A stretch of DNA of 64,000 nucleotides from Chitinophaga pinensis. Its GTDB lineage: Bacteria > Bacteroidota > Bacteroidia > UKL13-3. Every line of letters begins with the position of its first letter. The stretch's first letter is position 1. Shown piece after piece: positions 16,681-19,119 of the stretch. Below the pieces are notes generated by a model that saw only the letters and a list, made by a program, of their open reading frames with translations, ran no database searches and was not told the DNA's origin. The stretch covers positions 1-64,000 of the forward strand of contig CAMAWM010000002.1 in assembly GCA_945861965.1 (NCBI GenBank). The letters run 5' to 3'. Position numbers and translations under genes: made by a program.

Positions 16681-16935
16681 TCAGGCTTCGGGCAAGTTTT
16701 TTAAAAGCTCTTTGGCTTTATTTATTACGTGTAAAAAGAACAATACGGGCCAAACTAATGCCGCTTTGCTTGAATAATTAAGTAAAATTATGCTTGTAAA
16801 GACGCCAATACTAAATGAAGCAATGACAACATATATTAGTTGTATGCGTAGATTATTGCTTTTAATAAAGGAAACAATTGCAGAAAAAAGCAATAATGCC
16901 AAAGAAATAATTGCAGTGATGTAAATGATGTTCAT
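16681..16935 (-). CDS. Small three-segment membrane protein, function unknown
   Basis: The ORF track starts at 16971, but the internal ATG at 16935 (MNIIYITAIISL) gives an 84-residue protein that begins directly at the first membrane segment; the upstream start would overlap the M61 coding region. Three hydrophobic segments are visible (about residues 3-24, 33-53, 58-73), then a basic tail. I do not recognise the family. Its start codon lies inside the 20-bp palindrome shared with the divergent peptidase gene. Confidence 0.6.
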   Translation of the reverse strand: MNIIYITAIISLALLLFSAIVSFIKSNNLRIQLIYVVIASFSIGVFTSIILLNYSSKAALVWPVLFFLHVINKAKELLKNLPEA

Positions 16936-16971
16936 ATTTGCAAATATGAAGTACAAAGTTTCGATAAACAA
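16910..16971. promoter_or_regulatory. Palindromic bidirectional promoter over two start codons
   Basis: TTCATATTTGCAAATATGAA (16931-16950) is a perfect 20-bp palindrome containing the start codons of both divergent genes (CAT 16933-16935, ATG 16946-16948). Each arm holds CATATTTG, one base off TAnnTTTG. On + a TTG lies exactly 19 nt upstream (16911-16913); on - a TTG lies 20 nt upstream (16969-16971). Predicted starts fall at or next to the start codons, implying leaderless messages. Confidence 0.5.
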
Positions 16972-18397
16972 CCCAACAGAACATTTTATTCAAATAGAGG
17001 GGAAAATTGAAAATATAAAATCGCAAGAAGTGTTGTTGCAATTACCAGCATGGAGACCGGGAAGGTATGAGCTTGGAAATTTTTCGAAAAATATTAGAAA
17101 GTTTAAAGCAATGGATGAAAGCGGCATCGAATTGCACGTCAGAAAAACATCAAAAGATTGTTGGAAAATAATTAATCCAACGATGCTGAATAGTATAATA
17201 ATACATTACGAATACTATGCAAATCAATTGGATGCTGGCGCATGTTATTTAGACGAAAATCAATTGTATGTTAACCCAGTTCATTGTTTTATGTACCAAT
17301 CAGAAAACATGAAAGAATCTTTTGAAATTGAATTGAACATTCCGGATAATTACAAAATTGCATGTCAACTTTCTGAAAAAAATAAAGTTCTTTTTGCTAA
17401 AGATTTTCAACAGCTTGCTGACAGCCCGTTTATTGCATCTGAGAAGTTAGAAAAAACTTCGTTTTCAATTGAAAATTCAACAATCCATTTTTGGTTTAAT
17501 GGAGCCCACAATGTAAACATCGAAAAACTAAAAGAAAATACGATTTCATACGCCAAAAAACAGGTAGAAATTTTCGAAGAATTGCCTTGTAAAGAGTATC
17601 ATTTTTTGTACCAAATGTTGCCAGATGCTTTTAGGCATGGCGTTGAACACGAAGATTCAACCGTTATTGCAATGGGAAAAAGAGAAGATGAAACTGACGA
17701 GAATTTTTACGATAGTTTATTGGCAATTAGTTCGCACGAATTTTTTCATTTATGGAATATAAAACGCATTCGTCCTGTTGAAATGTGGCCTTATGATTTT
17801 ACAAAAGAAAACTATTCGACACTTGGATATGTTTACGAAGGAATTACAACATATTATGGCGATTTAATTTTGCTAAGAAGCGGAATTTGGAACTGGGAAA
17901 AATATGCAGCAAGTTTTAATGGCGACTTAGAAAAACACTTAAATAATGAGGGTAGATTTAATTATTCGGTGGCCGAATCTTCGTTTGATACATGGTTGGA
18001 TGGATACACTCAGGGAATTCCTGCAAGAAAAGTTTCAATTTATTTTGAAGGAATGTTAGCGGCTATGATTGCCGATTTAATGATAATAAAAAACTCAGAC
18101 GCAAAGTTTTCGCTTGATAATGTAATGCACGATTTGTACCACGATTATTATAAAAATAACAAAGGATATACGGAAAGCGATTATAAAAATTTGTTAGAAA
18201 AATATGCAGGCATTTCTTTCGATTCCTATTTTAAGGATATAATTTGGGGAAAAGGAAAAATTGAAAAATATTTAGAAGAATATATAAGTTTGCTTAGTTG
18301 TTCTATATTTGAAAAAAAAATTCAACGACAAATTGATGTAGAATCCAATCCATTGTTTGTTTATTGGATGAATAGAAAAAAATGTTCTACTAAATAA
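16946..18397 (+). CDS. M61 family metallopeptidase (glycyl aminopeptidase type)
   Basis: I choose the ATG at 16946 (MKYKVSINNP), which matches the conserved N-terminus of the family, rather than the track start at 16925. 483 residues: an N-terminal beta domain with the hallmark LPAWRPGRYELGNF, then a zinc peptidase domain with HEFFH (about residues 264-268) and the downstream Glu ligand in YEGITTYYGD. No signal peptide, so it is probably cytoplasmic; the C-terminal PDZ domain of longer members is absent or minimal. Followed 8 bp later by the Crp/Fnr gene. Confidence 0.88.
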   Translation: MKYKVSINNPTEHFIQIEGKIENIKSQEVLLQLPAWRPGRYELGNFSKNIRKFKAMDESGIELHVRKTSKDCWKIINPTMLNSIIIHYEYYANQLDAGACYLDENQLYVNPVHCFMYQSENMKESFEIELNIPDNYKIACQLSEKNKVLFAKDFQQLADSPFIASEKLEKTSFSIENSTIHFWFNGAHNVNIEKLKENTISYAKKQVEIFEELPCKEYHFLYQMLPDAFRHGVEHEDSTVIAMGKREDETDENFYDSLLAISSHEFFHLWNIKRIRPVEMWPYDFTKENYSTLGYVYEGITTYYGDLILLRSGIWNWEKYAASFNGDLEKHLNNEGRFNYSVAESSFDTWLDGYTQGIPARKVSIYFEGMLAAMIADLMIIKNSDAKFSLDNVMHDLYHDYYKNNKGYTESDYKNLLEKYAGISFDSYFKDIIWGKGKIEKYLEEYISLLSCSIFEKKIQRQIDVESNPLFVYWMNRKKCSTK

Positions 18398-18405
18398 GGA
18401 TTATT

Positions 18406-19119
18406 ATGAATAGAGAAAAAATCGAGTGTCAGTTTTGTGACACGAAGAGTCTAACTGCATTTTTAGAAAAATGCACCGATGCAGAAACTACTAAAGTAAT
18501 AGAAAGTAAAACCTGCGGACAATACAAAAAAGGACAAAGTATTTTTTATGAAGACAATGTTGCTTTAGGTATTTATTGCATCACAAAAGGAATTGTAAAA
18601 CTTACCCGCTCTAATATTTATGGCAAAGAACAAATTTTGCGATTTGTAAAAGAAGGTGAATTTCTAAGTTATCGCGCAGTGATTGCTGATGAAACACTAA
18701 CCGCAACAGCAACTTGTGTTGAAGATGTGACTGCTTGTTTTATACCAAAACAGGTTTTTATTGATTTGGTTCAAGGCAATCCAGAGATAAACAAGCAAAT
18801 GTTTAAAACCCTTTGTCACGACATGGGATTAAGCAACGAAAAAATTCAAAGTTTGGCGCAAAAAAGCGTTCGCGAACGTGTAGCCGAAACTATTTTATAT
18901 CTTCATCAAACCTTTGTTGAAAAACCAGACGAAACAAATCAGGTGATTCCGATTAGCCTGCCACGCGAAGATTTGGCAAATATTGTTGGCACCGCTACAG
19001 AAACTTTAATTCGATTGTTGTCTGAATTTAAAAACGATAAATACATCGATTTTGAAGGCAAAAGAATTAAAATATTAGACAAAGCAGCTTTGGAAAGAAT
19101 TTCGAGAGCGAGTGTTTAA
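18406..19119 (+). CDS. Crp/Fnr family transcriptional regulator with Cys-rich N-terminus
   Basis: 237 residues: a cyclic-nucleotide-binding-type beta roll (about 40-150), the dimer helix and a winged helix-turn-helix with the recognition-helix motif LPREDLANIVGTATETLIRLLSEF. The first 40 residues contain C8, C11, C23 and C37, followed by C58. This recalls Fe-S sensors of the FNR type, though the spacing is not that of E. coli FNR. It probably shares a message with the M61 peptidase (8-bp gap), but the ligand and targets are unknown. Ends 6 bp from the convergent DUF5916 gene. Confidence 0.9.
   Translation: MNREKIECQFCDTKSLTAFLEKCTDAETTKVIESKTCGQYKKGQSIFYEDNVALGIYCITKGIVKLTRSNIYGKEQILRFVKEGEFLSYRAVIADETLTATATCVEDVTACFIPKQVFIDLVQGNPEINKQMFKTLCHDMGLSNEKIQSLAQKSVRERVAETILYLHQTFVEKPDETNQVIPISLPREDLANIVGTATETLIRLLSEFKNDKYIDFEGKRIKILDKAALERISRASV

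Follow-up and report, generated by a model that had tools for sequence, protein, structure and literature searches.

The window (the whole 64,000-nucleotide stretch of DNA that was analysed) belongs to a Bacteroidota draft genome of 2.10 Mb, and contains a divergent gene pair whose start codons are separated by a spacer of only 10 bp. On the forward strand lies the gene of an M61 family peptidase (ATG 16946-16948) and on the reverse strand that of a small conserved protein, S84 (ATG 16935-16933). The features of the locus, with the basis for each, are:

16681-16935, minus strand: S84, conserved 84-aa protein with two hydrophobic stretches (two-helix); conservation across the family
16911-16913, plus strand: TTG, possible -33 element of M61; sequence, 19 nt spacer, not conserved
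16931-16950, no strand: 20-bp perfect palindrome TTCATATTTGCAAATATGAA, containing both start codons; sequence, frequency at chance level
16933-16940, plus strand: putative -7 element of M61, CATATTTG, including the complement of the S84 start codon; TTTG kept in relatives, consensus forms at the same place
16935-16936, minus strand: predicted S84 transcription start, 0-1 nt leader; same distance rule as for M61, about 10 bp from the predicted M61 start
16941-16948, minus strand: putative -7 element of S84, CATATTTG, including the complement of the M61 start codon; mirror of the plus-strand element
16945-16946, plus strand: predicted M61 transcription start, 0-1 nt leader; from the 4-5 nt distance between -7 element and start (PMC6847099)
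16946-18397, plus strand: M61 family peptidase, 483 aa; PF17899 (E=1.7e-45), PF05299 (E=2.1e-38)
16954-16961, minus strand: alternative one-off -7 element for S84, AAACTTTG, inside the first M61 codons, predicted leader about 13 nt; sequence, broken in genus g6
16969-16971, minus strand: TTG (CAA on the plus strand), possible -33 element of S84; sequence, 20 nt spacer
18406-19119, plus strand: Crp/Fnr-type regulator, 3' of M61; gene order kept across the family

Both genes of the divergent pair are real, judging from the domains and homologue starts of M61 and from the conservation of S84. The M61 homologues start at the same methionine (MKY/MHY), and we rejected an alternative M61 start at the ATG at 16925 based on these N-termini and on the PF17899 match, which begins at residue 2 of the MKY/MHY form. 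S84 had no match in Pfam or NCBIfam; it is carried by 31 of 64 genomes of the family (46–63% identity among those aligned), and is practically absent outside it. The Crp/Fnr gene probably shares an operon with M61, and these two genes (16946-19119) are conserved as a pair family-wide, including in genomes without S84. A search of a viral collection identified neither a relative of M61 nor the palindrome.

The palindrome in the genome and in relatives

An earlier note on this DNA had described a perfect 20-bp palindrome spanning two start codons 10 bp apart, with a one-off -7 element in each arm, and these observations hold: the palindrome occupies 16931-16950, and CATATTTG is found at 16933-16940 (+) and again at 16941-16948 (-). 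The 16-bp exact core of the palindrome is unique in the genome, occurring once even when up to one mismatch is allowed. However, in the 1.26 Mb of stretches from which our genome-wide counts were taken there are five perfect palindromes with arms of exactly 10 bp versus 4.7 expected from Markov-shuffled sequence, which rules out the palindrome as a statistically special element; for arms of at least 10 bp the count is 9 versus 7.0, the surplus being two much longer ones. For two ATGs at a distance of 10 bp, the probability of a perfect 20-mer is ~6e-4, a value that, being calculated after the fact, is only mildly surprising. Among the relatives, L063 (22 bp) and L066 (18 bp) also have a perfect palindrome and L050 and L060 a near-perfect one, whereas it is broken in genera g6, g7, g8 and g9. 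Most relatives with both genes have thus lost the perfect palindromy, the very outcome set beforehand as refuting, and so the palindrome falls as an element while the promoter idea stays. The perfect palindrome is a chance-level feature of one species and no conserved switch; two TTTGC ends would meet here, with an outcome that happens to read as a perfect palindrome.

Elements of the -7 type at the locus and genome-wide

In mapped Bacteroidota promoters transcription starts 4–5 nt past the sequence TAHHTTTG, of which T-12 and T-6 are nearly invariant in F. johnsoniae (PMC6847099). Scored against this -7 element of the sigma-ABfr type (T-12 A-11, T-8 T-7 T-6 G-5), the window matches at five of six positions: both CATATTTG copies are one mismatch off TAnnTTTG, having C for T at -12. 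They adjoin each other, and their footprints would overlap. The full TAHHTTTG is present at the same place in L067, L068 and L069.

To place these elements in context, we counted motifs before gene starts called mechanically (the first ATG of long open frames), so that all such counts are approximate. TAHHTTTG lies 3–9 nt before an ATG 29 times in the sample of the source genome versus 7.2 expected (P about 1e-9; 3 for the reversed control), and 20 times versus 4.5 expected in the subset with unambiguous starts. It forms a peak 4–8 nt before ATGs, with a sharp onset at 4 nt and a flat reversed control, and similar peaks were found in smaller samples of two relatives (g6 and g11). Because of this enrichment just before ATGs in the source genome and two relatives, near-leaderless promoters are an ordinary minority in this lineage. 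Most mapped Bacteroidota mRNAs are leadered, with 5.5% leaderless in one study (PMC9723704) and about 3.7% having leaders of <10 nt in another (PMC7366714), and the motif positions suggest that this family has a higher share of near-leaderless mRNAs than the model species in which transcripts were mapped. The form seen in the window, CAHHTTTG with C at -12, is unenriched before genes (15 versus 14.1 expected, and the same in two relatives), as is A at -12 genome-wide (31 versus 32.3 expected). We also tried reading the element as TATTTG without the TA at -12/-11, and rejected this as it was not enriched. As the C-12 variant is unenriched, the site at this locus may be weak, or may require assistance; that it may nonetheless be an active promoter is argued from its orthologous position, not from the quality of its motif.

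The same counts yielded several further observations. TAHHTTCG occurs 70 times 3–35 nt before ATGs versus 6.0 expected (~12-fold), compared to 115 versus 34 for TAHHTTTG, and is also enriched in two relatives (8.0x and 6.2x); in this family, it seems, the -7 element reads TAHHTT(T/C)G. The opposite-strand form of the element (CAAADDTA) is enriched 4–5 nt before ATGs in the genome sample (9 versus ~2). In addition, near position 4320 of contig C22 of genome G000 there is a divergent pair 8 bp apart in which TACATTTG, 5 nt before one ATG, overlaps the start codon of the other gene, a second such layout with a consensus -7 element on one side.

The spacer between S84 and M61 is variable, being 10 bp here and 11, 12, 13, 14, 15, 26 or 28 bp among relatives (10–15 bp in genera g1, g3, g6 and g7, and 26–28 bp in g8), and exceeding 100 bp in one well-supported g3 clade (99/100); several insertions or deletions have therefore arisen between the two start codons. 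TTTG is found beside the S84 start codon in 15 of 16 short-spacer relatives, which share ancestry and thus are not 16 independent observations, versus one of five in the supported long-spacer clade. The noncoding bases adjoining this codon are kept as ATTT(T)G, the first four positions after CAT having identities of 1.0, 1.0, 0.88 and 0.94 in the 16 short-spacer genomes, compared to mean identities of about 0.54–0.60 at third codon positions of S84 and M61. The complementary CAAAT precedes only three of 985 ATGs in the source genome and is lost in the long-spacer clade, which led us to reject a generic Kozak-like start context as its main cause; given this rarity, the bases are easier to explain as an opposite-strand -7 element of M61. 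Insertions or deletions at this very place have given rise to consensus -7 elements before the M61 ATG in several relatives: TATATTTG at 4 nt in L067, TATTTTTG at 8 nt in L068 and L069, TATAATTG at 8 nt in L065, and TAATATCG at 5 nt in both g9 genomes. The g6 genomes have TATTTTGC 7 nt before this ATG, which fits TAnnTTGY, the motif SM5 of F. psychrophilum (PMC9723704).

On the S84 side the CATATTTG element is conserved in g3 genomes with 12-bp spacers and in g6, more weakly than on the plus-strand side, and is absent or degraded in L067, L053, L054 and g8. In the three members of the long-spacer clade that were scanned, a consensus TAACTTTG lies 37–39 nt before S84. This clade (L043, L044, L049, L052 and L071) also has a conserved intergenic block between S84 and M61, TGCGAACAAAGTTAAAAA-TTGCAAA ... 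AAATAnTTTGTGCC, which includes TAACTTTG on the S84 strand. Two synonymous codon choices at the borders are uniform: Asn2 of S84 (16930-16932) is AAC in 16/16 short-spacer relatives and AAT in 3/5 long-spacer ones, AAC making up ~31% of Asn codons in the source genome, where AAT is preferred, and Tyr3 of M61 is TAC in 16/16 short-spacer genomes with a genome share for TAC of ~34%. This TAC preserves the G of a second minus-strand TTTG, that of AAACTTTG (16954-16961). The TTG that the earlier note had placed upstream of each -7 element is present, at 19 nt (+) and 20 nt (-), but is weak evidence, since most g3 genomes, and some of those in g6, have TGG in place of the M61-side copy. A TTG or TTTG near 16969-16971 on the S84 side is also found in g6, g3 and g7, and can be explained by coding constraint. 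Mapped Flavobacterium promoters show hardly any -33 element (PMC6847099), and as the TTG is not conserved we did not count it as promoter support.

A putative compact bidirectional promoter and its alternatives

The comparison, in which the divergent pair is conserved, its spacer varies, the M61-side TTTG is kept, several relatives have a consensus -7 element and near-leaderless promoters are common, suggests that one compact promoter region drives two near-leaderless mRNAs in opposite directions, a reading to which we give a probability of about 0.5. The primary sigma factor (sigma-ABfr type) would direct polymerase both ways from the 10-bp spacer and its borders. The plus-strand -7 element of M61 would run over the S84 start codon, reading it in complement, and the minus-strand -7 element of S84 would do likewise with the start codon of M61. 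Facing either way, polymerase would start ~5 nt past the -7 element it uses, right on the corresponding ATG or a few nucleotides from it, to produce two near-leaderless mRNAs with start sites ~10 bp apart (a predicted spacing of 9–11 bp), and occupancy by both polymerases at once would be sterically excluded. The proposal of two mutually exclusive promoters whose transcripts begin on the ATGs or next to them thus survives in outline, through the kept TTTG, the consensus elements of relatives and the genome-wide 4–8 nt peak, but less well for the C-12 copies of the window, whose activity in this species we infer together with the actual start sites, the S84-side promoter and the mutual exclusion. 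In our best reading the predicted promoter is stronger for M61 than for S84; a near-leaderless promoter is fairly likely for M61 and less certain for S84.

This asymmetry leaves some room for an alternative, doubtful in our view, in which only the M61 promoter (near-leaderless) lies here, S84 has a separate promoter within the coding sequence of M61, such as AAACTTTG at 16954-16961 with its leader of ~13 nt, and the symmetry is incidental. The better conservation of the M61-side element favours this arrangement, and candidate elements recur ~18–21 nt before the S84 ATG (AAACTTTG here, TAATTTTG in L066, TATTTTGT in L067, TAAATTTG in L061 and TAAATTCG in L042), with the TAC codon required for the second TTTG fixed in all 16 short-spacer genomes; yet the element is broken in g6 despite the TAC being kept, and its A at -12 is of a kind unenriched genome-wide. 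It is unlikely that there is no promoter at the palindrome at all, with the sequence a chance product of two ATGs, second codons starting with AA and AT-rich start contexts, and transcription starting elsewhere. The chance-level frequency of 20-bp palindromes, the unenriched C-12 variant and the general A-richness around ATGs would all fit such an explanation, but CAAAT is generally rare before ATGs, TTTG is conserved in the short-spacer relatives with consensus -7 elements at the same spot, and no consensus -7 element was found within 220 bp 5' of M61 here, with only scattered ones in relatives. Finally, the suggestion of the earlier note that the symmetric element serves as the operator of a dimer, possibly of the Crp/Fnr protein whose gene lies 3' of M61, draws on the perfect symmetry here, the symmetry of some g3 genomes (e.g., the 22-bp palindrome of L063) and the nearby Crp/Fnr gene, but is very improbable: the distance between arms varies by 0–6 bp and the spacer from 10–15 to 26–28 bp among relatives keeping the gene pair, which makes a rigid dimer operator unlikely, CATATTTG-N0-6-CAAATATG occurs only nine times in 64 genomes (five at this locus, two at other gene starts and two inside open frames), so that the sites do not make up a regulon, and many relatives that lack both S84 and the arms still have the M61-Crp/Fnr operon, which argues against Crp/Fnr as the binder.

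Returning to the bidirectional promoter, we tentatively extend it to a family-wide architecture, possible though below even odds, in which the -7 element of each gene contains the complement of its partner's start codon, polymerases exclude each other, two near-leaderless mRNAs are made, and start codons constrain promoter strength, with CAT imposing C-12. If true, the Bacteroidota sigma factor would here use a bidirectional promoter tied to leaderless translation, which would extend bidirectional promoters to the divergent primary sigma factor of this phylum, and packing would be very tight, the same bases serving in promoter elements and in start codons. Bacteroidota do not use Shine-Dalgarno sequences, and such a locus could offer a handle on how they translate almost leaderless mRNAs.

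The view of the earlier note that no element like this has been described was too strong, as Warman, Grainger and colleagues have described bidirectional promoters with divergent starts 7–25 bp apart, 10 bp being a common spacing (PMC12825309, PMC10268837). These consist of pseudo-symmetric DNA with overlapping -10 elements and are enriched between divergent genes; polymerase can bind them facing either way, and once bound it keeps out a polymerase facing the opposite way. The locus would work like these promoters, with a predicted start spacing of ~10 bp and predicted exclusion, although membership by definition rests on mapped starts and those here are predicted only. Whereas these known promoters share a sigma-70 -10 element (TATAAT), the locus has two putative sigma-ABfr-type -7 elements side by side, and, unlike in them, each reads in complement across the start codon of the partner gene and the mRNAs are predicted to be near-leaderless. 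In this latter respect the locus resembles leaderless and near-leaderless Bacteroidota mRNAs, which have a -7 element 4–5 nt before the start and an ATG at or near the 5' end (PMC9723704, PMC7366714, PMC6847099), the leader here being predicted at 0–1 nt. Leaderless mRNAs are a few percent of those mapped in Bacteroidota, whereas here two such genes, as predicted, would stand back to back.
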